Shown here: piece after piece, positions 5,863-27,831 of the stretch
How positions within the stretch are numbered: the stretch's first letter is position 1
How the letters are laid out: every line of letters begins with the position of its first letter
Position numbers and translations under genes: made by a program
The notes under the pieces: generated by a model
What the model saw: the letters and a program-made list of their open reading frames with translations, nothing else
What the model was told of the DNA's origin: nothing
The model's database searches: none
From: Agelas oroides
Lineage: Eukaryota; Porifera; Demospongiae; Agelasida; Agelasidae
Reading direction: 5' to 3'
DNA: 64,000 nucleotides
Assembly (NCBI GenBank): GCA_949130485.1
Contig: OX422192.1
Span: 4,596,085 to 4,660,084 of the forward strand

Positions 5863-7860
5863 TCGTCTTCCCCAGTGCTCTCTTTAAATCTTCTTTTGTC
5901 ATTTTTTCTGTCGAGCCCTTCTTCAACTTTGTGTTGGCTCTATGAAATTGAAGGTAAGCCAACTTGAAAGAAGTAAGAATGAGAAATTTATCCATAGCAA
6001 TTTATCATCCACAGCGATTCAAAAGTAACTCAGAAATATGGAGTGCATGCATGTTTTACACAATAATAGTATTCATGCATTTTCATGTCTAACATAGCAT
6101 TGGAATTGAAATTATTTAGATTGATTGATCATATCACAAGAAAGCTGACTTGTACTCTTACGGCTAACTATGAATTTACCTGTTGAAATCAGGCTAAAGA
6201 ACTGTTTTGGTATGTCTTTTTGAGGCAGAATGACACACGAAAGGTTTCGTGTGTCTCCTCGCTTTCTATCAATATCAGTTGATGTTAACCCCTTCATCAA
6301 GAAATGCTGGTTTGCAGTAGTTTTACAGTCACTCCTTTTCCGCAGCTGTCGGCGAATAGATGACTCATCTGTGTGCTGAATTCCAAGATTGTCTAGCAGA
6401 CGAAGGAGCTTTTTCAGGACAATAGCAACTCCAGGCTGATTTTGGCAACTTGATTGGCACCAGAAGAAGCACTGTGGATTAACCACACTGAGAACCTATG
6501 TACAGGACAGGAATATACAAAATGATAGGACTCCTACACAGAGATCAGTATAAGCTGTATGGTTTCCTTCTCAATTTTCAAGCACTGATCACAAACCACT
6601 TCTACTATGCCCGTATAGTCTCACAAACTGGTGTACATAAGTTATTGATGGTAATTTCCTAAATAGCTGCTAACTACACACCTCACTGCATGTAGAAGTT
6701 TTTGCCAAAGCTAGAACATACTCTCCAAGTAGGGAGCTTGTAGATGGAACTTGTTACTTGATTGCTGGTGCGAGCATTATAAAAAGTGTCAGTCACAAAC
6801 TCTGTAGTGAGTATCTCATCACTGACTGCACTTTCAATCTGCAGTGTTCAAAACAATAATGTAAGTGAGGCTATACATTTGCATTTTTCATTTCTTGCAA
6901 CAAATTTTTCATACACAGATAATGCCAAAGTGCCAGCTAACATGCATCAAAGATATTAGTAATCTGTAGCAGAAAAGTAGCAGCATGTATGTAACATATG
7001 CACATATGTACCACCAGAGCAGAGGCCACAGTCAAGGTGTATTCCATTACGATCCTGGAGTCCAGGGCTGGGATTGCCTGTTGTATGGTATGCATGACAG
7101 ATGCCAGGTCACTTGGGTCCCGTTGTGACAGCTTGTACCCCAGGTGGACAAGATGTGGTAGAGCAGCCGGCGCAGAATCAAAGGCTGCGTTAATTTTGGA
7201 TGTCTGCATGAGGTTGTACTCAACTTCATGGAGGAAGGGAATCAGCTTAGCTCTGCATAGGATCCTATCAAAATTAGGTTACCAAATAACTAACAGGTTG
7301 GAGAATAATGTACTAATCTATAACTTCAGTTCAAACAGATACATCGTGCACGGAACATTTAGAAATACACGACTTGAGACCTTTCATCTCTAGTAGCAAG
7401 CTCATCCAAGATGTGCTGATTTGCTGTTGCCACTGGAACAATCCTTGAGGCACCATGGGATTGAATGTTATCAATGGTGTTTCCCCCAAACACAGTCAGC
7501 AACACCTTTTGAAGTTGTTCAGCATCATCAGGGTCATCAAAACACCATGGCATGGCCCCCAGCAGTAACTTGCGCAGGAATGCATCTGAAATTGATGAGA
7601 ATTTGGCCTTTCGAAGACCAAGTGCTGCAAGTGAGAGCTCCACACTCTTGGACTTTCCGCCCAAATGCTAGGCTGACTCCACAGCTGCCAAACGTTTTCA
7701 AGATGTCTTCATAGAACAGTGAGGTAACCAATGCCCCTAGATTTTTGCAGTAAACAAGACTTACTAAAAAGCAACTACATAATTATGTGCAGAAGCATAC
7801 AGTGACACTATGTGCAATAATGACATGAAAAATATATAATTCAACTAAATACTGAATGTG

Positions 7861-8034
7861 CGGGTAGAAATCGATTCGTCACATATTTCAGTCGCGTTTC
7901 TCCACTTGAAGAGCAGTGTTGCACAACTTCCGCTAAGGACTTGTTTCGTCCTTAGTGGAAGTTAAGCTCTACTGCTCTTCGACTGCAGTAACGCAATCAA
8001 AATATGAAATGGATTGATGTGGGATTTCTACCCG
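7861..8034. mobile_element. MITE with CGGGTAGAAATC ends
   Basis: A 174-bp inverted-repeat element in an intron of the minus-strand NTPase gene. The left end CGGGTAGAAATCG and the right end GGATTTCTACCCG are complementary. A second, inner inverted pair surrounds the centre (ACTTCCGCTAAGGAC / GTCCTTAGTGGAAGT). No clear target duplication was found. Confidence 0.7.
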
Positions 8035-9002
8035 GTAGTACGACATATACAAGTTACTGCACATAAAGTGACCTGACAATTTTGAAGTCAGGGAACTGCT
8101 GCTGTTTTACGCACACAAGACAAACACTGCTGATCCAAAGTTTTCCTGGGTCAGAGTCTGAAGTCCCTGCAGTAACGTCTCCAGTGGTTGGTCACAGTGA
8201 GGGACTAGCTCCAGCAGTGGTGAATCAGGGATCACACTAGCCAAATCAACTACCTGCTGTACCCATTCATATTCCTGGCTTTCGAGGGGAATAAGGCCAC
8301 CGTTGCTGGAAATTTGTGCTGTTGGCCCAAACACAAACGTCTCACTGTCAAGCTGCCTGCCGAGAGTTGTAACCGCCTTCATCACCTTGGGTTCACTGTA
8401 TGAACAAGCAAACATTTCAAAGTCAATACTTGCTACCCATAATAATCCATTTGCTACATTTTTCACTAGTAGCATAGATAGTAGAGTACTATCTACACTA
8501 GTAGTTACTGCACTGATAATGTAAATCACCTATAATGACTGCATCAATAGTGTCAAACACATTAGAGTTACTGCACCATTAGTGCTCACTAAAATCTTAG
8601 TACTCTGTAATTTAATTCACAGTTTTATATATGGCTATGGACTACCTTTGATACTCAGAGAGCTTCATCCAGAACACATCCTTCAAGTGGCTGGGTGACA
8701 GTTTGGACATCAGTGTACATTCTGGAATGGCAGAACCCAACTCTTTGGCAATGTTCAGCCCTTTCTGTTGTGTCTTATACCATGGAAGAAAGCATCTCCT
8801 GTGTGTTTTGAAGCAACAAGGCATTAAATCAACAAATCAAGCAAAAATAATGACGAGAAGTGACACAGGCAAGCAACAATGACAGCAGACAACACAATCC
8901 ACCAAATACACTAAATTGGCAAACCCTAAACAAACTATATAGCATGATGGCTAAAATGTAGACACAAGTGTGGACACGGACAAGCAATAAACAATATGGG
9001 AA

Positions 9003-9093
9003 AGATGGCAAACCATGCGAGATGGCAAACCATGCGAGATGGCAAACCATGCGAGATGGCAAACCATGCGAGATGGCAAACCATGTGAAATGG
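9003..9093. repeat. 17-bp tandem repeat, about 5 copies
   Basis: The unit GAGATGGCAAACCATGC is repeated about five times, nearly perfectly. The minus-strand reading (HGLPSRMVCHLAWFAI) is a by-product. Confidence 0.9.
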
Positions 9094-9152
9094 TAAGCAA
9101 ACTACAGAGACAGTCACAAGCAGTCATGCTCAGCTGTTGGTAACCTACCAGC

Positions 9153-9872
9153 TAGGGCGTCTCTAATCGCTGGACTGGAATATGGAACGGAACAATGGAA
9201 TGGAAAATGGAATGGAACAGTGAAAGTAGCTAACTTGTGTAGCTGACGCTGCTCAGTCTAGGTTGAACTACCTAGTGTATCTCCAGGGCTGTTATCTCAC
9301 TGCAGAAGCTTATGAACAAGTACGGCATTGCCCACCGTCATGCTTCATTATCCTAGCATGGTACCGTTGCTGGCTCATCATCAGATGCTTTGTTATTCTA
9401 GTCTTGCAAACCTGACTCTCGAACGAAAAACAAGGGTCTGGCTTCGCAAGACCATAGTTATAGTCCGTAGACAAACTTGAATGTGCTTGATGGCAGAAAT
9501 TAGTGCTCGATCCTCAGTTTCTTCGCTTTGGTCTTGTCTGTGCACCTCAATCCTTGGTCACACAACCTTAGTAGCAGCCTTCCTTTACAGTAGTAAGCAT
9601 GACTCCTATGTATGGTACTGTAGCTGGTCTCCGGGGACTCCGAGTTCTGACCGTGATACCAGACAAGGAAGAATGCTGCCAACATGCACTGGACTTGCTC
9701 ATACAGCCTCTGCGGTGAGATAAGAGCCCTAGACACATAGTAGCTAGCTAAACCTTGAAGAACAGCGCCAGCTACACAAGTTAGCTGTAACTATGTACAT
9801 TCACCATTTCCATTCCATTTTCCATTCCACTGTTCCATTCCGTATTCCATTCCAGTGATTAGAGACACCCTA
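9153..9872. mobile_element. Foldback MITE with TGGAA-rich arms
   Basis: The arms at about 9153-9250 and 9765-9872 are inverted copies beginning TAGGGCGTCTCTAATC (left) and TAGGGTGTCTCTAATC (right, reverse complement). Each carries TGGAATGGAA-type repeats and a shared ACACAAGTTAGCT / AGCTAACTTGTGT segment. The 500-bp middle has no recognisable gene. CTACCAG occurs at both borders, but the duplication is not clean. Confidence 0.75.
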
Positions 9873-9984
9873 CCAGTTATGACTAGCTCTACACAGTCAG
9901 CGTGAGAGCACCCACATTTCCATGCATCAAAGCATGTAAATGTCTCACCCAAAATTGCCTGTGTGACTTCTCACTTGCAATCTT

Positions 9985-10200
9985 GTGGGGCATTCCCACC
10001 ATATTACTGCTGGTGTGACTCACACACTCTGGTGGAACCATATTGCCATTGGTGTGACTAACCTGGTGGGAAATTCCCACCATATTGCTGCTGGTGTGAC
10101 TTCCCACTGTCTATTTGGTAAGACAATCCCACCAAGTCACACTGCTAGTGTAACTTCACACTGGGTGTGTGACAGAGCCTTGGTGTGAAAAACCCACCAA
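9985..10200. repeat. Degenerate about 55-bp tandem repeat
   Basis: Three to four imperfect copies contain a CCCACCATATTGCTGCTGG-like string followed by TGTGACTTCCCAC. Short ORFs over it are not credible. Confidence 0.6.
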
Positions 10201-10425
10201 ATTTTTTACAGTTTATATTTTGTACCATAATAGTTTACAGGTATACGGTATCAGTATCACGTTGAGGGTTCCACCAGCTTATAAAACTTAAACTATAAAT
10301 ACATTATTGTATGCCAATGCCAACGGAAAGCTCGTATGGACACTGAAAGCAGTTTTGGAAGGCAGTGAGGTTACTGAAAGGAGACAACAAAACAATACCA
10401 ACACTAGTTGTCAATGACCATGAGG

Positions 10426-10537
10426 TCTCATCCTAACCCCCCTCCATTTGTATATCCATACACCACCCACATTTTAATGTCTCTTTTATTCCCTTACAGG
10501 AATGTGGTAGGAAAGTGTAGTAAGGATTACAATTATT
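10426..10537 (+). repeat. 112-bp direct repeat, copy 1
   Basis: CTCATCCTAACCCCCCTCC through GGAATGTGGTAGGAAAGTG and AAGGATTACAATTATT. It recurs almost unchanged at 11042-11153; the hAT MITE lies between the copies. Confidence 0.85.
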
Positions 10538-10626
10538 AGCCATGGTAACTACGCTGCAAATGTGGCAGCAAATTAGCATGTTACATGCTGATGCAGTATA
10601 ATGGTACTGTCTATACTACATGTATA

Positions 10627-10998
10627 CAGGGGCGGAGGAACATAGTTTGATTTAGGGGGGCTGAGCAGTAGGTGAAACAAGAAGCCTTTAGGGTGGTCTG
10701 GGGGCATGCTCCCCCAGAAAAATTTAGAAATTTGCATACTCTGAGATGCAATCTTACGCCATCTGAGACAAAATTCCATGACAATTAAGTATATACACCA
10801 TTCACAATTACATACATTAAAAGTTGCCAAAAAAAATGTTTCCTTCGACTGTTTCTTGATACAAAATCTTGTGCAATTTCTGGTCTGTATAGTGCAATGG
10901 ACTGGAGACTCAGTGGAGAGTTGGGGGGGCTAAGCCCCCCCTTTGCCAACTTTAGGGGGGCTGTAGCCCCCCTAGCCCCCGTGGTTCCTCCGCCCTTG
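10627..10998. mobile_element. hAT-type MITE, perfect 8-bp TSD
   Basis: Terminal repeats CAGGGGCGGAGGAAC (left) and GTTCCTCCGCCCTTG (right) differ at one base. The flanking CATGTATA at 10619-10626 and 10999-11006 is an exact 8-bp duplication, the hAT signature. The 372-bp interior is non-coding, with GGGGGGCTAAGCCCCCC-type palindromes near the right end. A related sequence occurs near 60650. Confidence 0.9.
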
Positions 10999-11041
10999 CA
11001 TGTATATATAAGTTCACTCATCAAACACCCAAATTATACTG

Positions 11042-11153
11042 GCTCATCCTAACCCCCCTCCATTTGTATATCCATACACCCCCCATATTTTAATGTCTCT
11101 TTTATTCCCTTACAGGAATGTGGTAGGAAAGTGTAGTAAGGATTACAATTATT
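11042..11153 (+). repeat. 112-bp direct repeat, copy 2
   Basis: Near-identical to 10426-10537. It is followed at 11154-11190 by an inverted partial copy (ACTACACTTTCTTATACCAC). Confidence 0.85.
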
Positions 11154-11201
11154 GTGATCTTTACTACACTTTCTTATACCACACTCCCCCTTATTTTAAT
11201 T

Positions 11202-11788
11202 GGGGCGAGCCTGAGCGAGCCCCACACTAGCGTGACTTCATTGCGCACGTGCGTGTGTATGTTTGCTTGCTTGCTTGTTTGGACCGACCACTTACCGTAA
11301 ATTTTAAATGAGCGCATTCAAATATTTCACGAACATCGATTATCGTGAAGCATGTGAAGGCCAGTGGAGTCGGAGTGCAGTGTTGGCGACCCGGAGCGAA
11401 GACGACTGGGGTTGAAGCACGCGTGGCAACTTAATTCTGATTTGTGCTTGTATCGACGACGGCAGGCGGCGCTCACAGGCAGTAAAAATATGGACGGTAG
11501 CTAGGTGACTGCCGGGGTCGCTTCAGGTAGGGCCATGCATAAATGGTACTCATAAACGCCAGAAATTTAGCTCATGATTTCGGCTTAAAGCTTAGTCCAT
11601 GCATGTGTAGCCACGTTAGTTGCCCTGGCTGGAGAAATGGCTGGCATATGTGATATATGCATAGTGAGGACTTACAAGTTACTTATGCGTTATCAAATTT
11701 GGCTTTAAGCAGTCGACAGTGACACATCCTGCTGTGTGCCATGACAAAGTAGTAAATCAGCAGTTTGCTGCTTGCTCAGGCTCGCCCC
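11202..11788 (+). mobile_element. GGGGCGAGCC-terminated element, copy 1
   Basis: A 587-bp element with ends GGGGCGAGCCTGAGCGAGC and GCTTGCTCAGGCTCGCCCC (inverted). It contains a (CTTG)n run and GC-rich stretches unlike the surroundings. No coding capacity is seen. The superfamily is unknown. Confidence 0.7.
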
Positions 11789-11860
11789 ATGATGATGATA
11801 ATCATCTCACTAGTACCTTCCTGTAACTATGTATAAGTATTGTGTCTCATACGCCTTATT

Positions 11861-12445
11861 GGGGCGAGCCTGAGCGAGCCCCACACTAGCGTGACTTCAT
11901 TGCGCACGTGCGTGTGTATGTTTGCTTGCTTGCTTGCTTGCTTGTTCGGACCGACCACTTACCGTAAATTTTAAATGAGCGCATTCAAATATTTCACGAA
12001 CATCGATTATCGTGAAGCATGTGAAGGCCAGTGGAGTCGGAGTGCAGTGTTGGCGACCCGCAGCGAAGACGACTGGAGTTGAAGCACGCGTGGCAACTTA
12101 ATTCTGATTTGTGCTTGTATCGACGACGGCAGGCGGCGCTCACAGGCAGTAAAAATATGGACGGTAGCTAGGTGACTGCCGGGGTCGGGCCATGCATAAA
12201 TGGTACTCATAAACGCCAGAAATTTAGCTCATGATTTCGGCGTAAAGCTTAGTCCATGCATGTGTAGCCACGTTAGCTGCCCTGGCTGGAGAAATGGCTG
12301 GCACATGTGATATATGCATAGTGAGGACTTACTAGTTACTTATGCGTTATCAAATTTGGCTTTAAGCAGTCGACAGTGACACATCCTGCTGTGTGCCATG
12401 ACAAAGTAGTAAATCAGCAGTTTGCTGCTTGCTCAGGCTCACCCC
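11861..12445 (+). mobile_element. GGGGCGAGCC-terminated element, copy 2
   Basis: Same orientation and about 97% like copy 1, with a longer CTTG run and one short deletion near 12184. Both copies are followed by the same ATGATGATGATAATCATC, so the duplicated unit includes that flank. This points to tandem duplication rather than two independent insertions. Confidence 0.75.
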
Positions 12446-12635
12446 ATGATGATGATAATCATCTCACTAGTTAGGATGGTTGTGGACACACACAAGTTAC
12501 ACATAAACAAAATTTGATCGATTGATTGATTGAGGTCTTTTAGAGTTAACTGTCACAGTTATGACCACATGCATTTACTGTAGTATATTGCACTTTCAGG
12601 AACCATGCATGGGTATCTTTTCAAGGTTTTTCTGA

Positions 12636-15600
12636 GAGTTACAATGATACACATTCATTGTCAAAGGATAAAGGTAATAAACTTGCAACTAGTGTACTAA
12701 TGCACATTTTATTAACTATATGCTCAACCTCTCACGCAGAGGTGAACCCACACACTGTGGCTGATGCCTTCTATAATGGAGAGCTTGAGTCTGAGATCAG
12801 ACTCTTGGTAACCACAAGTGGCACAGTGACTCTGAGTGACTTCACATTTAGAAAGGACTCAGACAGAGAGGCACTCATGGAGAAGATAGAGTCCATTTGC
12901 TCGCAGACAATCTACCACCACCATGAATGCACACCAGACTGCAAAAAAAGGGGTAAGCTAAATAATTTTGGAAGTAAAAGAAGCAGCACCATTGTAGTGG
13001 TGAAAATCCCAAGGTGTGGGGAAAGCCAGAACATCATATTTCTTTGTTGTACACTATGGGTCATGGACGGCATTTGGAAATTAACCTTTCCCCATTGCAT
13101 GCATCGAGTCAAGGTACCTTGTTTAAAACATGATGGTATAGTTACCTATCTAAATTGATTATAGCAAATCTCTCTCCTCTTTGTAGTATAGTTGAAAAGA
13201 TCCCAGCTCTTTCCATGCCTGATGTCTGTACAGCAACACCAGTTCATGGTAAAGCTTTCTGCAAAGAGAACTGTGACGCACTGTGAGCTCCTGGAAAAAC
13301 AAGCACCACCCATTCCGACAGATTTGAGGGGATTCCTCAAGCACTGTCAAGTACTCACAGGTTAGCATCAATTTATGGTTCATGAAAAGCTAGCTTGCCT
13401 TCACTTTGCATTGTGAAACATAAGAAGGCTAAATGAAGAGGTTATCTGTTACCAACTTGAGCTTGGAAAATAACTTGGTGATGTTTTGACTGAATGCTCC
13501 AGTCATCATCAGCGCTCAAGTTGGTAACAGATAACCTTCTCTTCATTTATGCAGAAGCCAGTTGAGAAGCCACTGTAAATAAGAAGGCTACATATAGTAA
13601 CTGTTTTTTTCTTTTTGTCACTTCTAATGCCTTGCATATTACAGAGGATGATAGTGCAACTCAGGAAGAGGAGCAACAGATAGAACAAGTCCTGGATGCT
13701 ACTGCAGTTGATACTGGAAGGTTTGTTTGTTGAACTTGCTTTACATGAGAAAGACAAATAAGAGCAGAAATTCTCAGGCCTGTAGCCAAGGGGGATTTGA
13801 GGGGTTTGACTGAACTCCCCCTGGCTAACAGACTAATATGAAGCTAGAAGGGACCTCTGCTATCCTTTGTATTCTATGAACAGTCTGAATAGTTTCCACA
13901 ACACATTACCCATGGCGAGATTGCTGGGTGTGGCAACACCCCCCTGCCACATGCACAGCACACACCCTGTGGCCCAAACCCCCTTTAAGAAATCATGGCT
14001 ACAGGCTTGATTGGCTCTAAAGCACAAAGATTATAGCCCAAGAGTGGTTAAGGCATATCCCAAATTTGATTTTGCTTCATATATTGAAGACAAAGTACAT
14101 GTACAATCATTTATTAACCAAATAGCTAATTGATTGTACTTTATTATGAACAAGCTAGCATTACCATGACAACATGCTAACAATCCTTTAATTTCCTTTC
14201 AATCCCGATGCAATGGATATTAAGCGAAAGCTTTTGTTTTAGCTATCTGAATCTGGGTAGGGACACTGTAACAGTAAGAGATACCAACCTGAAGCTCCAA
14301 GAAGCAAATAATTTTGATTAATTATGAAAGCTCACCTCTCCAGTGACAGCAACAATAGCCTCTGTCCCCAGGTACAGTACGTTAGTACAACTAGTCCACT
14401 ACACGCTCGAAGTATTAGCCACAAATCTAGCCATCTAAGATGATAGGCCATCATCGCTCGAGTATATTCCCTTCTCCTGCTCCCAGAAACATACAGTGCT
14501 TGACCTCAATCGCAGCCCTCGGTAAGTCTGACCTACCTACTTCACAACCATGGATAACACATATGGACTAGCAGCGAGAATAACACTAGCAAAGCTAAGA
14601 AGCTTACATGTGGCAGCCATTCAATCCCTGTGAACTATGGCAATACTTTTGCAATTTGTTGCATATCACATTTGGGGCCGCCTTAACCGACCTGAGTTTG
14701 CAACAGCAAGGAGGGGGGAGCTGACATCTGGTTGCATGGTACATGTGTAAACATTCAATAGTAAGGAGACCTGACAACAAGCTAATAGCTTTCCCTTACA
14801 TAGTGAAACACTAACAAACAAGTCATCTAATCTCTATAATCCTCTAATGGAAATTTCCGTTTCTGTATAGGCGTATACATCACCTGCTTCATGATCATCC
14901 ATCACTGCTCCAAGAAGCAACTGCAGAGTTCAGCCCCGTCACATGTACCAAGAACACTGGTGAGACAAAGTGGTTGCGATGGTGGTCCAGGGGGCATCAG
15001 CTGATTGTGAGAGCTGGAGGGCATATTGAGGCATGGCAACCTCTATACATGTATGTCAACATTGCATACTGATCACTGGGACTGACTCTGCAGCTAGTTA
15101 CATGCATTCTTTGACGTAGATGTAATTCATTAGTTTGCACCTTCTCTGTGACATCAGAATCCTTTGTTTGCACCTTTCTTTGTTTGGGCCTAGAGTAACT
15201 GCTTAATGGTGTCAGATATGCATGCAAATATGCATGGCCAGAAAAGCCCTGATATGCACCTACATACCATAGCAGTTTTACAGCTGTAGCTGGTGTCATG
15301 TTAATGTACAAATACAGGTATAGTATGGATTGTGCACATAAATGTTCCTTTCAGTCAATGCAGCTAACTATAGCTGCATTGTATTACAATTCATGTATAT
15401 ATTTTCATTTTTAGGTCAGAGTCCCCGAGTCAGGTCTTTTTCATTGTCCTGACATGGTTAATTGCGCTTCTACAGTCATCAGCCATCAAGCCAGAGGAAC
15501 TGCAATCCATATACCTGGCTTATGACAACATGTGTAATTTGTGCCACCTGAAAGTTGCAAGAAAGCCATTACCATTAAAACCACCACTTGATCGTGCATG

Positions 15601-18622: not shown

Positions 18623-18640
18623 TAGAACAAGGGTACTGCT

Positions 18641-19345
18641 TCACTTCATGTTAACATATTTCCTTCATGTGAACATAATTCCTTCATGTGAACATATTCC
18701 CTTTATGTGAACATATATTATCCCTTCATATGAACATATTTGCTTCATGTGACCATATTCCCTTCATGTGAACACATTCATTTCATGTGAACATATTTCC
18801 ATTCATGTGAACATGGTGAACATATTTGCTTCATGTGAACATACTCCCGTCATGTGAACATATTTGCCTCATGTGACCATATTCCCTTCATGTGAACATA
18901 TTTGCTTCATGTGAACATATTCCCTTTTAATGTGAACACATTCCCTTCATGTGAACACATTCCCTTCATGTGAACACATTCCCTTCATGTGAACATATTT
19001 CCTTCATGTGAACATATTCCCTTCATGTGAACACATTCCCTTCATGTGAACATATTCCCTTCATGTGAACACATTCCCTTCATGTGAACATATTCCCTTC
19101 ATGTGAACACATTCCCTTCATGTGAACACATTCCCTTCATGTGAACACATTCCCTTCATGTGAACATATTTCCTTCATGTGAACATCTTTCCTTAATGTG
19201 AACATATTTCCTTCATGTGAACATGGTGAACATATTTGCTTCAGGTTAACATATTTCTTTCATGTGAACAGATTCACTTATTGTGAACATGTTCCCTTCA
19301 TGAGAACACATTCCATTCACATAAATATGTTGCCTTCATGTAAAC
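18641..19345. repeat. 20-bp minisatellite, about 35 copies
   Basis: The unit TTCCCTTCATGTGAACAYAT is repeated across 700 bp, with TTTCC/TTTGC variants at the edges and the most regular copies in the centre (about 18930-19170). Confidence 0.95.
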
Positions 19346-19608
19346 ATGTTTTATGTTCATGAACATCTCATAGCTTTCTGAACAAGATCTGTTAACATGT
19401 TCTGGCCATGTATTTCAGGTGTACCTTCTTCTCTGGCATGCAAACACCTCCTAGAAATGTCCTGCATGATACACAATTTGATGAACACTTGAACCAGAAC
19501 ATCATTGTTCACGTGAACATTCACATCATGTATACTGCAGAAAATGTCTCCTAAAATCATGCATGGTATCAATTTAATAGCCCTTGTGAAAACTTACGGT
19601 CTACTTGG

Positions 19609-19884
19609 GTGTCCGTCCTTGGGAGGGCAAAGCAAGAAACACACTGCACAGCTATTACCACCACTACAATTAATTCTCTCACAAACAAGTTCATTATGAA
19701 TTTTCTGAGAACTGAATTTCAGCTACAAATTGCCTTCAGTCTTCACGTGGACCACTTGAATGTGTATAGATTTACGTGTGGTGTACGGTTGGGGGCGTGG
19801 TGTGGTGTCCTGCATGGCGGCGCACGCCCGGCGGGGCGTATTGTCCGGTGCCGCGCGCACTGTGGGCGTTGGCATCGTCGCTCG
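19609..19884. other. No gene recognised
   Basis: A GC-rich stretch (19780-19880) leads into the 21-bp repeat. Overlapping ORFs here read through repeats and have no domain. Confidence 0.4.
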
Positions 19885-20070
19885 CATCGCCGTCGTCTAT
19901 CGTCGCATCGCCATCGTCTATCGTCGCATCGTCATCGTCTATCATCGCATCGCCATCGTCTATCGTCTATCGTCGCATCGTCATCGTCTATCATCGCATC
20001 GTCATCGTCTATAGTCGCATCGTCATCGTCTATCGGCGCATCGTCATCGTCGCATAGACATCGTCGCGTA
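19885..20070. repeat. 21-bp CGTCATCGTCTAT repeat
   Basis: Units of CGTCATCGTCTATCGTCGCAT and close variants, about nine copies. It directly abuts the 5'-truncated MULE domain, so the break in the transposase may have happened in or next to this array. Confidence 0.9.
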
Positions 20071-20094
20071 GCGCGACCTCCAGGGCCACCGTAA

Positions 20095-21110
20095 ATAACG
20101 GATGAGGAGAGGGGAATTGTTAACGCAATCACCTCAAATCTACCTGCAGCAATTCGCCTACGATGCTGGAATCATATCTTCCAAGATGTCACAAGATGGC
20201 TTCGCAGTCATGGTGCCAAATCAGAGGAAATCTCCATCTACCTCACAGATGTACGTGACCTGTTTCACCAAGCTTCAGAGGTGGAGTACAGAGAAATGCA
20301 AATGGAGTGCACCATTTCATGAGTACTACACCAATGAAGTAGCACCAGACATCACCTCAATAGCAAGGTGGGTAATTGAGCCCTACGGGGTTTATGACCC
20401 ATATAGTGGTATTACCAACAACCAGGCAGAGGGCCTAAATTTTGTGTTGAAGCAGCTCCAAGAATGGAGAGAGGCTCCAATAGATTGCATGGCCTTGGCT
20501 CTCCACCACCTTCAATCCTACTATTTGGTGGAAATTGCCAGAGGACAACATGGCATGGGAAATTACCATCTGCACTCACAGTACCTACAGCTTAGAGAGT
20601 TGACTCCCATTCCCACCTCATCCTTCAGTCCTGATGAAATTGTCAGCAGAATCAGGGGGAAGTTAGCTCATTCAACTGAACAAGAACAAACCCCCAAAGT
20701 ACATCTGTCTACTTCTAAGCATGATCCAGGAACACAATTCAGCCAAGTGGAATGAGCAAGGCTAATTGTCGAGCAAAACCGAATTAATCTTGACACAAAA
20801 CTCCACACGTTTACAGTTTTGGGCTCAGAGCGACCACATGTGGTGACACTATTTCCTAAAGAGACATGCTCTTGCCCATCAACAACAACTTGCTACCACA
20901 TACTTGCGGCAAAGATGTCTCTTGGGGTAGATCAGAAGCAACAGACTCAGCATCGAGTGAACCTCACACAACTTCGGAGAAATGCCCGTAGCAGGAGAGA
21001 GAAGAAGTCAGGGCGTAAGCATCCACGGCCAGGTGACTGTGATGTTGTCCCAGCACCAGATTCGTCTGCAGTCATGGACACCTCTCCCACAAATACACCA
21101 GTGAAAACAG
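20095..21110 (+). pseudogene. MULE transposase domain plus SWIM zinc finger
   Basis: In the frame of 20101 the sequence reads TDEERGIVNAI (second catalytic Asp context), then LRCWNHIFQDVTRWLRSHGA and IYLTDVRDLFHQASEVEYREM. A frame change at about 20297-20303 moves to KWSAPFHEYYTNEV, ARWVIEPYGVYDP, SGITNNQAEGLNFVLKQL (third acidic residue context, NQAE) and IDCMALALHHLQSYY. After an in-frame TGA (20753-20755) come VVTLFPKETCSCPS and CYHILAAK. The SWIM ligands CxCx5CxH have codons at 20867, 20873, 20891 and 20897. The exon ends at a donor (21111) after a basic stretch. This order, MULE then SWIM, is standard for Mutator-like transposases. The first catalytic Asp and N-terminus are absent upstream, where a minisatellite begins. 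Confidence 0.75.
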
Positions 21111-21408
21111 GTAACTACAGGTGATACATACAAGAGACATGTACCCATTTTACATAGATATTGCACACTATCCTTATCACCTGCCAATGCACAATGTAGA
21201 ATGACCCAGTGCATAGCCGTAGATTATATTTGCACTTCTATAAACACATGCTGCATACTTCGGAAGTGAGTATGGTTACTGTGGCTCAAAAGCCACAGTT
21301 CGTTTCAAATATCATTAAAAAGTTCCACTCCATTGTAATGGGTGCTAAATAATGTAAAAGCAAGCTGATTGATATCAGTTTACCATACATCAAAAGTTGT
21401 GCTACCAG

Positions 21409-23297
21409 ATTTTTATAATCATACTCCAGATGATCCTGAGGTCCTCTCTGATGCTGGAGAAGCTCTGAACATAATGTGGGAGCTGTTAACTCAGAGTGAC
21501 AATAATCCAGGTGAAAATCAGCCAGCCTGTGCTCCATCTGATCCAGGCCTGCAAGGTGGGAGATTCTCCCTAAGGCATTTGCAACGTAAGAAGTTAGTAT
21601 GCATCTATTTGTTCTGATACAGACTCTGAAGACGAAGATATACCACCTTTGCCACCACCCATGCCCAGTTTGTCTGAACTGTCAAATATTCAAAAAGGTC
21701 AGGCAAGCAGATTAGAATTTAATTGGCTGCTAGTGATATAGACATTAATCACTTACCAACCAGGAGGAAATGGCTCAGAGGTGACTTCTTCTGGGAGCAG
21801 TCTCACTGACCCATTCATACCACCCACAGCCATCAAACAAGGTTACCTAATTGACTTTGAATAACCATATCTATAATTTCAATGTTAGCTCTGCCATCTA
21901 GACAAAGGAAATGATGGGGAATCAAAAAGAACTGGGAACAAAAGAACACAACAATCAGAAGCACTGCAAACAAAGAGAAGAAAAGTGACAACATCTACTG
22001 GGTCTGAGATGGTTGATGAGCTGGCACAACAGAAGCCACCAACTGTGTCTCCTCATCCAAATTACAAGCAAGGTAGCGTATTGATGTTATTGTGATAGAC
22101 ATTTACTGTGAGTGCAACTCAATCAGCTTTTATCCATGCATTGGGACTTAATTTGGGAGAGCAAAATGCATCCTTGTGTAATGCAGCCGATTTAGTTAGC
22201 AAGACTTGAGGTAACTTTGAGGTTGATGGTTGAATATAAATGACTGAATATGTGCGAGTATATGTGCATTTATATAGTGAGTGAGAGTGATGATCTAAGT
22301 GCTAATACATATTGCTCAATATCCTGCTAGTCCTATACAACAAAGAACAGGAAACCAGTGTCTAAGAGATAAGGTCTAGTTCAGCACAAATCAAGGATTT
22401 AACACCTATACAGCCTAAGGGAAATGAGTACATAAATCAGAACAAATCAGCAAATCAGTCACCAACTTACATGAATATTGCCTTATAAGTCCAAAAGTAT
22501 CTACACCACAATAATCAATTCAAGTCCACAAGAATATTCCATTACACTTGCATACTTGACATTTCAAATCAGAAAAACTCAGGTGCTAACATCACATCCA
22601 GTAAATTCTTCAGTGCCCCACAAAGATAAAAAGGTTGATTCTTTTTTTTTTGGTAGAGAAGTCAAGAGGTACATCAAAGCTGCCAACACATGTACAGAAT
22701 GTTGCTGAAGGGCAGAAATGCAAAGGTAAGTAACTTCCATTGAAGTAAGCATGTTTGAGCTCATTAATCGGGTTAATTTTTTTACCTACTCAGATTCAAG
22801 CACCAAACCTACTGCTTTAAAACCCACGACTAGAAATGCCAGCACATTCAAAGATCAAAAACAGAGACCCTCTGCAACTGTTTTTGTAACGCCATTGAGT
22901 GCACTTCAGAAGCACAGGAAAAGTCGTGAGAACCTTGCAGGTTGAGCTAAAAGTGCATGTTGAATCAATTTATTTGATGCTGTTTACATTTCACTTATAT
23001 TTCTCCATCTAGAAAGTGAACACAGTAAATGCAGTAGGACCCAGCCACTGAAGTACACTCCTCCGAACAGTGAAACCAGCAGTGATATGGTTATTAATTT
23101 TGTAGCTACTTTTGTGCACATAATTGGTGTATCTACATTTGTGCATGTCCATCACCAATTTCACTTATTCATTTGTAGATGCAAGTTGATGCATCACCTC
23201 TCATCACAGTGTTGTGCAAGAAGTGTCACAGGCACTATCCACTAAGACAAGCACAGCATCATGCACAGAATTGCACCCATGTGGAGACAATAGAAAG
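21409..23297 (+). CDS. Linker exons: acidic, NLS-like and C2HC finger
   Basis: Short exons in series: 21409-21510 (HTPDDPEVLSDAGEALNIMW), 21623-21697 (DSEDEDIPPLPPPMP), 21774-21841, 21902-22072 (contains TKRRKV, a monopartite NLS-like motif), 22657-22725, 22794-22940, 23013-23089 and 23179-23297. The last reads LCKKCHRHYPLRQAQHHAQNC, a CX2C-X11-H-X4-C finger resembling UBZ-type or other small zinc fingers. The stretch links the SWIM and Ulp1 regions. The composition fits a disordered nuclear linker. Exon borders are by eye. Confidence 0.5.
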
Positions 23298-23563
23298 GTA
23301 TCATGCACACGTGTTGCAAATAGTTATTAGTCTAACAGACAAACTGGTAAAACTAAATTATTAAGCATATAGCTGACTGACTTATAGTATGAAATAACTA
23401 GCTGGTTATATAGCTACTCTTTTAACACAAGGAAAGGTCCATCCACCAAACTAACTGCTAATTTACAGCTCACAGTGCTAATGACACAGTGCAATAATCA
23501 CAACAATTAGCAAGTACAGGGTTCAAACGTAAACATGTATGACTATTGTGTAGTCAGTTGTAG

Positions 23564-25017
23564 CACAATTTTTGCAGTATAGGTAAATTATATGCTTCAA
23601 CAATACAATACAGCACTCCTCTTACCTCCGGGGCTGAGTCTCTCCCTGTGACAATGGATCTTTCAGAACCCAACAATCCCTCTGTTGTCAAAGTGCCCAA
23701 AGATCCATCTGGGATTAAAGAACTCCCACTGGCCAAGGATTCCTCTGTAGTCCAAAATTCTTGAGTGGAAATAAGTACAACTGTCCTGGAATATAGTCCA
23801 AAGCAGGTCAAAAAGTCAGCAAGCGATCTGAGACTAATTGCTTATGGACATGCACTAAATGACAAGGTAACAGAGTTGTTATTGTGTAGATGTAGATTGG
23901 TATTGTACATTTCTCATTTGTATAGGTGATAAATTTCTTCATGTGCTTGCTAAACGAATTGGAGGAGAGAAGACATAAAGAGGTAGATGATTTTTCAGTA
24001 CTGTATGTTACCATAGAAATCCAGCCTTTTCTTCATACTTTAGCTGCCAATTGTCAGAAGACTGCACCAAAAGAGGGTTTTGTGTACCACCACATTCTTC
24101 TATGAATCTCTGCTGCGGTTGAAGAGTGGGCAGAAAGGATATTCCAGACAGATTGTAGCAACACATATCAAGGTTTTTCTTAAGTTTAAATAGCAATATG
24201 CCCATTTGATGAACTATGTTAGTAATCCTTTATACAATTGCAGGTGAGGGTAACAGAAATTTCACGCCTCTTGGTACCCATCAATTGCAATCGAAACCAT
24301 TGGATATTGCTGGTAAGAAGTAAAAGTGTATGTGGTAGATGGAATACACAAGTACTTTGTAGTATGCTATTGAGTGGGATGGAACACCAATTTTGGCATT
24401 CCTGCACATTCTAATAACTCACTGTTACGTACATAGGTGTATGACTTGGAAAAGCATAATATCAAGAGTCTTGACTCCCTGACTTCTACTGCCAATCATG
24501 TACAGCAGGTGTTGACTATAAGGTAAGGTACAATAGCATTAAGCAGGCATGTGTGAAATTTGAACTTCTCTCAGATGACAGTTGTCACCCCCCCCCCCCC
24601 CCCCCCCCCCCCCCCAACCACCACCACCACCACCACCCTATAAAAAGTCACTTCTTGAACACCCTCTTTCAAGATGACGGCTTCAGACAGAATGTGCATG
24701 AATGGTGCATTAGGCTGATGAAGGTAAACACTAATAAAATGTAGTGTAGTATGCAACTATGCATACACAATATGCACAAGTGATACATTATGTCAATGTG
24801 ATATAGGATCTGCCCCAGCAGGAGTCCAACAGTGTTGACTGTGGGGTTTTTGTTTGCAAGGTAATGTATTGTGCTCATGCTGTTGTATTATTAAGGCTCA
24901 GTGATAAGAATGCAGTGACTGACAGTTTGCAGAGTGTGCAATGTTGAAGTTGCCATTTCACATTGGGCAAGATGCTGATAGCCTTAGAAAGTGGTTACTG
25001 CAGGAACTAATTGCAAG
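23564..25017 (+). CDS. Ulp1/SENP-type (C48) cysteine protease domain
   Basis: Exons: about 23564-23866 (ends RLIAYGHALNDK), 23926-23982 (VINFFMCLLNELEER), 24044-24172 (CTTTFFYESLLRLKSG), 24244-24312 (RLLVPINCNRNHWILL), 24437-24522 (VYDLEKHNIKSLDSLTS), 24648-24723, 24807-24860 (LPQQESNSVDCGVFVCK) and 24935-25017. These are the landmarks of the Ulp1 fold: the L-N-D-x-V-I-N-F/Y-x-M entry helix, catalytic His (NHW, codon 24298), Asp (DSL, codon 24473), Gln of PQQ, and Cys (DCGVF, codon 24840). All are present, and most exon lengths keep phase, unlike the decayed transposase half. One in-frame TGA (about 23758) lies upstream of the fold. The expected activity is removal of SUMO or a related modifier, in the nucleus. 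A cellular SENP gene next to a MULE relic is the alternative. Confidence 0.75.
24588..24637. repeat. C28 homopolymer plus CCA repeat at a splice acceptor
   Basis: A run of about 28 C is followed by (CCA)n, ending ten bases before the acceptor of the exon at 24648. It may serve as the polypyrimidine tract. The minus-strand poly-Gly ORF is an artefact. Confidence 0.85.
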
Positions 25018-25114
25018 GTACACTAAATTATATCTTACACATGTACACATGCAGCAACATGAATGGTACTTTCTCTATGTAGCTCGAGTGTTTGTGAATC
25101 ATTTTCCTCTACTG

Positions 25115-25847
25115 GAGCTATAAACAAACTTGTTGAAGAGTTCAGGGATACACTGAATGTCGACATAACCAGGACTAAAAAGGTATAAAATTCTTCATTG
25201 CATTGGCTCTCTTTATCGGTTCACATTGCCTACGTATGTATTCTGAAAAGTGAGCATCCACACAATGTGTCTCTTGTGCTTTACAGTGCCTTTCACCAAA
25301 ACATATCCAACAGATCACACAACACAGCTCAGGTTAGAAACCTCGCCATGCAAATTGTAATAATCACATACATGTGAGATTGTTATTACACTGCACTTCA
25401 GATGATGATGGAACTTCAGATGATAATGGGTCATCAGATGATGAACAAGCCTTTCCTAACATCGGTACAATTGTGTATATACAACTTGCTGGAAGTAATG
25501 CTATATGTTCAATATGTTGTCCCATGATAACCACAGGTGAAGATGACATGCTTGTTCCTGATTTCTGGCCAGAAATCATACCTACTCCAGAAGATAGCAT
25601 TTTTGCCTACACCACACCAAAAGAATCATACATAAGGGCATTGAAAAATATCATGCAGTCATCAGCACTTGGCATTCCTATCAGGTGCGTATATCGTTGT
25701 TCTGCATGGCTCCTGGTACTGCTATGTGGTGTGATCCTTGAGAAGGACTTTACTGTGCTGGAAATGGCATCTGTTGCTTTCAGGGATGGAAAAACCTCTA
25801 GGGGTACAATAATTGAAGCCCTGAAAAAGGCTGAAGCAAGTTTATAA
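25115..25847 (+). CDS. C-terminal exons of the MULE-Ulp1 gene
   Basis: Exons around 25115-25182 (INKLVEEFRDTLNVD), 25288-25334 (CLSPKHIQQITQH), 25402-25464 (DDDGTSDDNGSSDDEQAFP), 25535-25685 (GEDDMLVPDFWPEIIPTPED) and 25784-25847 (DGKTSRGTIIEALKKAEASL, stop). Acidic and without a recognised domain. They may belong to the Ulp1 gene or be its own tail; borders are tentative. Confidence 0.45.
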
Positions 25848-25860
25848 CAAACAACTTTAA

Positions 25861-26359
25861 CCCTTTAAACACTGAATTTTTTCCACTGGAGATTAGTTTT
25901 AGCCTAAACATGCCTTTAACGCACCGTATCTCCATTTGTGTCAAAGCTCTGACTCCAAAACTGAGCCCAACTCCACTTCCAGCCTTAGCAAGCAGACACG
26001 TGACCTTAACCACGCCCCCTCATTAACGAGCATGCAATGGTCAGCACTCTCGATTGGCAAACAACCGCTTAGAGCCCAAGAAGCCTTCCCTGCCAGAAAT
26101 GAACCCCCTGAAAGGTGAGAGTAGCATTTTCTAAGCCTGCTCATGCAGCCAGGCCAAGAGATGGCCCACCCGGTGCCAACCACGGTCCTTTTGCAGCCAA
26201 GCCTAGCAGCTGCCATGTGCACAGCACCCTGCGGGTGACCCCACCCACCTCCCCCTGTCCCATGCTGACGCAGAACCTGCGCGCCAGCGCGCAGAGACTA
26301 TCTTTTCTGCGCAGTGTGCAGTATGACATTATCAAAAGTGTACTATAGGGTTTAAAGGG
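25861..26359. mobile_element. piggyBac-like MITE, TTAA target
   Basis: TTAA at 25857-25860 and 26360-26363 flanks ends CCCTTTAAAC and GTTTAAAGGG. TTAA duplication with CCC-starting termini is the piggyBac pattern. The 499-bp interior is related, inverted, to 27420-27800, 42390-42680 and 44627-44950 (GGCTTAGAAAA, TTCATTTCTGGCAGGGAA). Confidence 0.85.
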
Positions 26360-26363
26360 TTAA

Positions 26364-27415
26364 ACCAGCAGTCTCGAGCAGACTTACTGCGGTAGGTTGG
26401 TTCCTAGCCAAGCGCAGTGGTACATTTGATGCTGGGGTCTGAGGGTTGGACCCAAAGCTAGAGATTTGTTTGAGAAGCATCAGGAGAGTCGTGATAACAG
26501 AGCAACGGTTGCTGTCACCCACCAACACATTCAAAAGGCATTCCGTCGTGTGATGCCCATAGTAACTTAGACCCCCCCTCACCAATACAACCGGCTCAGT
26601 GGGGGACGGTAGGGCCACTGCCAACCGCTGAGAGAACTCCTTTCAACCTAGAGCCCACTTAACCCGAACTGTACTCAGCAATCACCTGAGCCACCACTGC
26701 TTCAGCATGCTTCAAATGCCACATTGGCGCAGGATCTACTTCAGGTGCAGTGAGAGTGCATATAGTTGGTTATTTAATTACATCAAGTTGACATATAACA
26801 GCATGTGAGTGTATACCTGGAGCACTCACTGAGCTAGATGTATTAGACACTCAGTATTCTCTATTTATACTTTTGGGGGAATCTAAGGGGCCACCTAAGG
26901 GGTGGCCCCTCCAAAGTAAGAATTGGAGGGCTCTTCCCCCCAAAAGGAGTACGTGCTCAAAGCTACAACAGTGCCACAGGGAGCTGATACACGGAGTCAG
27001 TATCTCGTGCCGTAATTTTAAGTGGCTCTAGGATACCTTCACAATTGGTCGGCTGGCCCACAGCAAGCAGAGGAGTAGTCTTGGGTAAAACCCTGGATCG
27101 CTGTCCCACAGCAAGCACAGGTACTTGCAGCCACTAGAGGATATTTATCACTATAATGGGGCCGCTGTCCCACAGCAAGCAGAGATACTTACAGCCCACT
27201 AGAGGATATTTATCACTATAATGGGACCACAGTCCCAGAGCAAGCAGATATTGCTCAAGAAGCATATAGTCACAGCCTGCAGGCTGGAAGGGGAGACACA
27301 ACTCCCCTTTATAGCATAAAGGGGGGTCCCTGCACTGCCTCTGCCAAAACCATCGGGACAATAGTTGGGCACTTATGAGGTCAGTGGTTAAATGAGGGGT
27401 TTGCCAGACAACATC
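26364..27415. other. No gene recognised
   Basis: 27110-27250 contains two to three imperfect copies of a unit with GAGGATATTTATCACTATAATGGG and CCCACAGCAAGCAGAG (about 68 bp). The rest has no recognisable feature. Confidence 0.5.
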
Positions 27416-27419
27416 TTAA

Positions 27420-27831
27420 CCCTTTATACCCAATAGTGCACTTTTGGTTACATCATACTCCGCACTGAAAAGATGCTCTCTGCGCGCTACGCAGACGGTT
27501 CTGCGTCAGCAGAAAGGGTGGCACAAGGGGAGGTGGGCGGGGTCACCCGCAGGGTGACATGCACATGGTGGCTGCTAGGCTTGGCTGGGACCAGGTGGGT
27601 TAATTCCTGCCCCGGCTGTATGGACATAATCTCACGGAGCCAGACTCTCACACGAAAAGCGGAAGAGTCTGGCTCCGCGAGACTAGTACGGACAGGCTTA
27701 GAAAACGCTACTCTCACCTTGTAGGGGGTTCATTTCTGGCAGGGAAAGCTTGGGCTCTGAGCGGGTGTTTGACGTCCTAAAGTGCTGACTATTGCGTGCG
27801 CAGGATGATATGCACAGGGTGGCTACTAGGC
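27420..27831 (+). mobile_element. Partial piggyBac-like MITE
   Basis: Starts after TTAA (27416-27419) with CCTTTATACCCAATAG. It shares CTGCGTCAGCAGAAAGGGTGG and the cargo of the family with 44627. The right end is missing; a palindromic insert (27634-27690, GAGCCAGACTCT / AGAGTCTGGCTC) lies inside. Confidence 0.6.

Follow-up and report, generated by a model that had tools for sequence, protein, structure and literature searches.

A Mutator-like element (MULE) of the sponge Agelas oroides, one copy of which lies in a 64,000-nucleotide stretch of its genome (C10:4596085-4660084, here called the window), has probably exchanged one protease for another. On this reading, the transposon lost a tail made of a C48 protease with a PHD finger, as carried by its relatives, and received in its place the Ulp1 of an integrase-type transposon residing in the same genome. 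The transposase and Ulp1 are predicted to be produced as a fusion, and we hypothesize that the tethered protease would act in desumoylation. The searched genome comprises 259 Mb in 141 contigs, numbered C1, C2 and so on. Nuclear-receptor zinc fingers gave at least four matches in it, in three or four places, a low number that would suit an animal of an early branch. A copy on contig C7 (C7:7906692-7914938, local numbering 6693-14939) serves as reference for the window copy, which is composed of the following parts.

20094..25860, + strand: copy of the chimeric MULE-Ulp1 transposon, equivalent to C7 local 7950-13941, both termini missing here
20095..20322, + strand: part of the MULE transposase that includes TDEERG (Asp codon 20101) and CWNH, frame break near 20323
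20324..20755, + strand: part of the MULE transposase that includes SGITNNQAEGLN (Glu codon 20429), closed by TGA 20753-20755
20756..21110, + strand: end of the transposase exon with a SWIM finger at 20867-20899, splice donor GTAACT
21430-21585, 21623-21697, 21764-21841, 21902-22072, + strand: four linker exons, open and in frame
22177..22549, + strand: separate repeat in the junction intron, also present at C46 and C6
22556..25860, + strand: part attributed to an integrase-type transposon, a remnant of a Josephin reading-frame tail followed by the Ulp1 gene
22657-22725, 22794-22940, 23013-23089, 23179-23297, + strand: four exons of a hand-built model
23614..23866, + strand: exon preceding the protease domain, interrupted by TGA 23762-23764, a stop private to this copy
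23926-23982, 24044-24172, 24244-24312, 24437-24522, + strand: Ulp1 catalytic exons 1-4 of 7 (domain 23926..25017)
24648-24723, 24807-24860, 24926-25017, + strand: Ulp1 catalytic exons 5-7 of 7 (same domain)
25083-25182, 25287-25332, 25402-25464, 25537-25684, 25784-25847, + strand: five C-terminal exons, stop at 25845-25847

The marks by which the first-pass annotation had recognised a MULE, TDEERG, CWNH and SGITNNQAEGLN, are all present (the first as ITDEERG at 20095), and we take the Glu codon at 20429 to be catalytic from its motif. The SWIM pattern CxCx5CxH that it had named is likewise there, as CSCPSTTTCYH at 20867-20899; a SWIM zinc finger after the transposase core occurs in some MULEs. 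The HMMER comparison proposed at that stage was run. The Pfam MULE profile (PF10551) matches the window piece with an E-value of 7.5e-4 and the whole C7 exon with 8.7e-6 (profile positions 2-98 of 99, 26.5 bits against a cut-off of 27.6), and the SWIM matches are 0.0054 and 0.019. The spliced Ulp1 exons match Peptidase_C48 with an E-value of 2.5e-22 (80 bits against a cut-off of 20.7), which bears out the multi-exon Ulp1 fold read from the motifs alone. Its catalytic codons are His 24298, Asp 24473, Gln 24816 (in the PQQ at 24813) and Cys 24840. The best protein match is human SENP1 (8.9e-15), then SENP2 and yeast Ulp1, and a HMMER alignment to SENP1 places the window's His, Asp and Cys on the residues that we take to be its catalytic triad. 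The exons at 22657-23297, the last of them (23179-23297) rich in Cys and His (CKKC...), gave no match to Pfam.

The transposase, the SWIM finger and Ulp1 are probably encoded by one gene, as judged from predicted splicing. The gene model has 21 exons after the SWIM exon, with borders picked by hand. Every junction from the end of the SWIM exon (21110) to the stop at 25845-25847 has its GT and AG, coordinate arithmetic joins the SWIM exon in phase to those that follow, and a single frame is kept throughout with one internal stop, TGA 23762-23764. This stop lies upstream of the catalytic domain and is private to the window copy, C7 reading CGA. The C7 copy has post-SWIM exons 1-18 open and spliceable, the complete catalytic domain among them; its exon 19 is without its 3' part and donor, and the exon's length is a multiple of three, so that skipping would be possible. 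A copy on C2 is broken, with exons 1 and 9 changed in length and the SWIM finger deleted.

The MULE-Ulp1 unit is one mobile element and not a host gene, because the C7 copy has terminal inverted repeats (TIRs), a perfect 9-bp target-site duplication (TSD) and an open transposase exon and protease domain. A DNA search of the genome found three copies with both halves, in the window, on C7 and on C2, which are 97-99% identical across the aligned parts of both halves. The C7 copy measures 8247 bp, its TIRs are 80-100 bp long (GGCC[A/G]TCCC...), and it is flanked on both sides by CACTTTTCG; the C2 copy retains the right TIR and is without the left. Mutator elements make TSDs of 8-11 bp, often 9, and TIRs are variable among MULEs; the TIRs and the 9-bp TSD of the C7 copy speak for placing the element in Mutator. 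Zisupton/KDZ, also considered, was dropped once the MULE domain and the 9-bp TSD had been found. A sister element, L044, has an 83-bp TIR beginning GGCCGTC. The combination of MULE, SWIM and Ulp1 that had been proposed thus holds for one element and probably for one gene, since its order is common to the three copies and one of them sits between TIRs and a 9-bp TSD.

Relatives of this element carry a different protease. The C7 transposase exon as query returned at least 70 matches, which were merged, where no more than 3 kb apart, into at least 41 loci. Proteases were counted if they lay on the strand of the MULE and no more than 6 kb downstream of it, the input being all 70 MULE matches, the C48-PHD matches listed (of 153) and 19 Ulp1 places. 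Among the matches listed, a PHD-type C48 lies downstream at 17 of the 41 loci, a SENP-type Ulp1 at three (the window family) and both together at none; C48 with a PHD finger thus accounts for 17 of the 20 loci where a protease was found. The probability of such a pairing by chance is about 0.003 per locus. In the near-identical pair L042/L043 and in L044, the transposase with SWIM is followed by C48 and then by the PHD finger (C48 domain 1.7e-4, above cut-off; PHD finger 6.4e-5, 23.3 bits against 24). The idea that L042-L044 are MULEs without a protease was rejected when this type was found. The two proteases are far apart: the sole notable BLAST match between C48-PHD and the SENP-type Ulp1 covers 17 residues around the Cys (E-value 0.016), and the C48-PHD query has no match in the C7 element (best E-value 3.7).

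The C48-PHD module was also observed beyond the MULEs. At L008 (C1:27936041), a 540-aa frame joins what appears by eye to be a Gypsy-type integrase C-terminus to this module, as in Ginger1, and four further places match the C48-PHD query with identical scores. At L005 (C18:1444359), a C48-PHD-like frame is followed after about 170 bp, on its own strand, by a 336-aa frame that resembles a Tc1-type transposase by eye.

The Ulp1 half, in turn, has its relatives in integrase-type transposons. Its DNA, introns included, matches eight other loci in pieces that are mostly 66-80% identical, two of these loci, both on C19, being a near-identical pair about 133 kb apart. L045 (C2:18540500-18550499), whose main pieces are 72-80% identical in DNA to the Ulp1 half, shows an rve integrase core (8.2e-8), then a Josephin match (7.7e-5, below cut-off) and then Ulp1. 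A sharp terminus is common to five of the eight loci (on C11, C8 and C2 and both on C19; L045-L049), and at L048 both ends are seen, TGTAGCGGC...GCTACA, flanked by a 6-bp TSD, TAAGTC. Josephin is present at L050, which is rearranged; in L051 and L052, which are pieces of the same DNA, no integrase was seen. The view that these MULE-free Ulp1 loci are host genes or decayed MULEs was discarded, L045 being an integrase-type transposon, L050 having Josephin and L045-L049 sharing one terminus.

The order integrase-Josephin-Ulp1 on one strand was found at 10 of the best 16 of 93 integrase matches; of the other six, two have one of the partners and four have neither. The remaining matches have E-values of 1e-9 or weaker, and many of them lie in long frames that may belong to retrotransposons. 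This count used 15 Josephin places out of 18 matches, three neighbouring pieces having been dropped, and 24 chosen Ulp1 places. Several Ulp1 exon starts are common, by eye, to integrase-borne forms with no more than 44-50% protein identity. In a small tree of exon pieces assembled by hand, with SENP1 as root, the MULE Ulp1 groups with those of L045 and L050 (support 0.98), and the other integrase-borne Ulp1s fall outside.

Ginger2 transposons have TGTNR termini, an integrase core and a 4-bp TSD. The L045-type terminus, TGTAG, and the rve domain fit Ginger2, and the TSD is 6 bp at L048, the only element with both ends seen. For GingerRoot, 6-bp TSDs and occasional TG..CA ends are described (PMC10045372). 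In the open-access literature, with preprints and Repbase Reports outside coverage, no Josephin in a DNA transposon was found, the main text of PMC6431247 does not contain it, and no name for integrase-Josephin-Ulp1 elements was found in the literature searched. Scans of viral and prokaryotic contigs gave no relatives outside this genome, which says little about other animals. Two pairs of stretches of about 10 kb, 99.98-99.99% identical and each about 133 kb apart (C1:5.45M / 5.59M and C19:4.01M / 4.14M), were also noted; they represent either recent segmental duplication or an assembly artefact.

The boundary between the two sources is visible in the chimera. Homology to the integrase-type element begins at about 22556 (C7 local 10720), at a point within the Josephin reading-frame tail of L045, and the same stretch is an intron in the MULE. 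It extends past the protease gene to C7 local 14376, after which the MULE's own right end follows. The separate repeat at 22177-22549 ends about 7 bases before the junction point in the window and C7 copies, and the C2 copy, which is without it, shows the junction free of this later insert.

The two halves differ in age, as a chimera predicts. The comparison of synonymous (dS) and non-synonymous (dN) divergence per half, suggested in the first-pass annotation, was carried out. The MULE 5' part against the sister L042 (407 codons) gave dS 2.8 and dN 0.30, the 3' part being saturated, and the Ulp1 half against L045 (181 codons) gave dS 0.43 and dN 0.10, a ratio of 0.24. The young copies have too few changes among them for a test of selection. 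Between window and C7, exons 1-18 of the Ulp1 half differ by two synonymous and six non-synonymous changes and the transposase by two and two (ratio 0.31); between C7 and C2, the transposase differs by one and 11 (ratio 3.4). Ratios for the Ulp1 part among the three copies range from 0.37 to 0.88.

Several observations weigh against the proposed exchange or limit its reach. Both TIRs are present in the C7 copy only, no TSD was seen at the sister element L044, and the MULE and SWIM scores lie below the curated Pfam cut-offs. Among the matches listed, 21 of the 41 MULE loci have neither protease; 14 of these match the query at only 25-36% identity, and the window copy's own 5' piece is also among the 21. 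Integrase, Josephin and Ulp1 stand together at L045 only among the eight Ulp1 loci, the SENP1 root is weakly placed (0.76) in what is a small tree of hand-assembled pieces, and the linker exons have no DNA match in L042 and L044 or in L045-L052. Fusion, splicing and activity are all predicted, from an exon model with hand-chosen borders, and the direction of transfer, from integrase-type element to MULE, depends on parsimony. The three young copies differ at too few sites to show selection on Ulp1 after its capture.

The window copy itself is dead: it has suffered an insertion, an inversion of about 49 kb, the loss of its 3' end and stops in both halves. The first-pass annotation had described a frameshift, a stop and a 5' truncation in the transposase half. 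The frame break near 20323 and the stop at 20753 (Arg at that codon in C7 and C2) are real and private to this copy; the supposed truncation is an insertion plus an inversion, as the missing 5' part with the left TIR still exists at C10:4566960-4568229, on the opposite strand, about 48 kb away. For the protease half, which had been described as intact, this is true of the catalytic motifs and not of the half as a whole, the private TGA at 23762 having been missed. Two repeats adjoin the copy.

19882..20093, - strand: end of a foreign repeat inserted in the element (terminus TACGGTGGCC..., minisatellite)
25856..26364, + strand: repeat with inverted ends TTTAACCCTTTAAAC.../...GTTTAAAGGGTTAAA and TTAA at both ends, adjoining the end of element homology

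The other end of the TACGGTGGCC... repeat lies about 49 kb off, adjoining the element's 5' piece; AATAAC is found at both junctions, and the C7 copy is uninterrupted at that point. Because both broken ends adjoin the same repeat and C7 is continuous, the layout suggests that the repeat was inserted and that an inversion (C10:4566766-4615990) then split the copy, one breakpoint falling inside the minisatellite-bearing repeat in the transposon. The element's right end was not found within the window, homology ending at 25860. An array just upstream, at 18640-19347, repeats a 19-bp unit (TTCCCTTCATGTGAACATA) about 36 times. At 26081-27751, nested inverted repeats, whose four pairs of arms measure 52-69 nt and are 76-93% complementary, surround a 65-bp tandem repeat at 27095-27248.

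The death of the window copy speaks against retention of the protease by the host, a possibility raised by the first-pass annotation. A domesticated gene retaining Ulp1 is extremely improbable: the window copy has its catalytic motifs intact, yet an in-frame stop private to it precedes the catalytic domain, near-identical copies are dispersed in the genome, that on C2 has length changes in two exons, and comparison with C7 gives no sign of constraint. Domestication was rejected on the private stop and the dispersed copies. A more serious objection to a functional role is passive capture, as in Pack-MULEs, with the Ulp1 tail an idle passenger between the TIRs. The low copy number and the lack of clear Ulp1 constraint among the three copies would agree with it, and MULEs are described as tending to pick up host gene fragments (PMC6446971, where the text available makes no mention of Ulp1). 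We nevertheless regard it as unlikely, considering that the frame is held from SWIM through 18 exons in C7 with the triad intact, that the protease appears to have been replaced and not added, and that C48-class proteases occur on unrelated transposases (the 17 MULE loci, the integrase-Josephin-Ulp1 elements and, by eye, the integrase-like L008).

The transposase and protease might also be two separate genes within one element, which seems quite unlikely to us. The unspliced SWIM frame stops at 21122-21124, ending 14 nt beyond the splice donor, so that an unspliced message would give the transposase alone, and plant KIU elements are described as having separate genes (PMC13317346); however, the SWIM and Ulp1 exons of the window share one frame across 21 junctions, as do those of C7 as far as exon 18, and in L042 the C48-PHD frame comes directly after the SWIM frame. 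Sharing is by itself directionless, and three MULE copies against many integrase elements could mean later success of the latter, had the MULE family been the donor. Such a reverse transfer is very unlikely, as Ulp1 is found in deeper integrase subfamilies (Ulp1 44-50% identical to that of the MULE, integrase 55-66% to that of L045), MULE relatives at 50-64% identity have another protease, and a decayed piece of the integrase element's Josephin frame sits in the MULE intron.

Under the favoured protease exchange, a MULE ancestor with a C48-PHD tail would have lost that tail and acquired an Ulp1 tail from an integrase-type transposon. The junction being intronic, the reading frame could have been held, and the element would have kept its own TIRs and mode of transposition. 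We hypothesize that the tethered protease, if the fusion is translated and active, frees the transposase, or proteins acting at the element in silencing or repair, of SUMO or a similar tag, and that this removal would favour the element's expression or transposition. A function of the protease is suggested because C48 proteases recur on different transposases and one seems to have been replaced by another. As speculation, retention of the post-SWIM intron would yield the transposase alone, and the balance between the two products could be governed by splicing.

A pairing of an animal MULE with Ulp1 is already known: hydra and lancelet, besides plants, were reported to have Mutator elements with Ulp1 (Bao, Kapitonov and Jurka 2010, PMC2836005), so that the lack of a well-described animal case, supposed in the first-pass annotation, does not hold. 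What is new here is the origin of the protease. The hydra and lancelet elements resemble the window family in joining an animal MULE transposase to C48/Ulp1, and the Ulp1 and PHD domains of Ginger1 and Mutator transposases in that paper's figure 1e legend resemble the 17 C48-PHD loci. As far as the description there goes, the window family differs in having no PHD-type C48 and instead a SENP1/2-like multi-exon Ulp1 common to an integrase-type element. The plant KAONASHI (KIU) / VANDAL MULEs, described as having no TIRs and three genes, one of which contains Ulp1 (PMC13317346), share with it a captured Ulp1 domain; membership in this type was rejected, the window family having TIRs and a predicted spliced fusion with an in-frame exon model where KAONASHI has no TIRs and a separate Ulp1 gene.

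Ginger1, as reported, combines a Gypsy-type integrase with a C-terminal C48 (Ulp1, or in one case Ulp1 and PHD), as L008 appears to by eye, and roles in transposition and repair were suggested (PMC2836005); its transposase is of integrase type, in contrast to the Mutator transposase of the window family. The integrase-Josephin-Ulp1 elements, Ginger- or GingerRoot-like, are donor-like with respect to the Ulp1 half and differ in transposase, ends and TSD (6 bp at L048 against 9). Oomycete Cryptons represent another transposon class with an Ulp1-family peptidase, and domain shuffling between Crypton groups was proposed as a possible cause of the similarity; they use a tyrosine recombinase, and no nucleotide-level donor is described in the text available (PMC3212892). 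No report of transposon superfamilies exchanging proteases was found in the open-access literature, with the coverage given above.

Proteases of Ulp1 or OTU type on unrelated transposons are known, the reasons having only been suggested in the available account (PMC2836005). Here, a single genome combines C48 on more than one transposase lineage with an apparent exchange of the protease at the nucleotide level, position and frame being kept, and in this exchange between transposon superfamilies the junction, later insertions and the source family are all visible. The integrase-Josephin-Ulp1 elements additionally bring two kinds of deconjugating protease into one DNA transposon group. The case resembles a natural replacement experiment, from which one would predict that what counts is protease activity close to the transposase. 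More broadly, and as a tentative proposal that we hold to be somewhat doubtful, C48 (ubiquitin/SUMO) proteases could be an exchangeable module selected for their transposase-tethered activity, whatever their lineage. If this is true, a tethered protease would be a general means of transposons against SUMO-dependent silencing or for repair.

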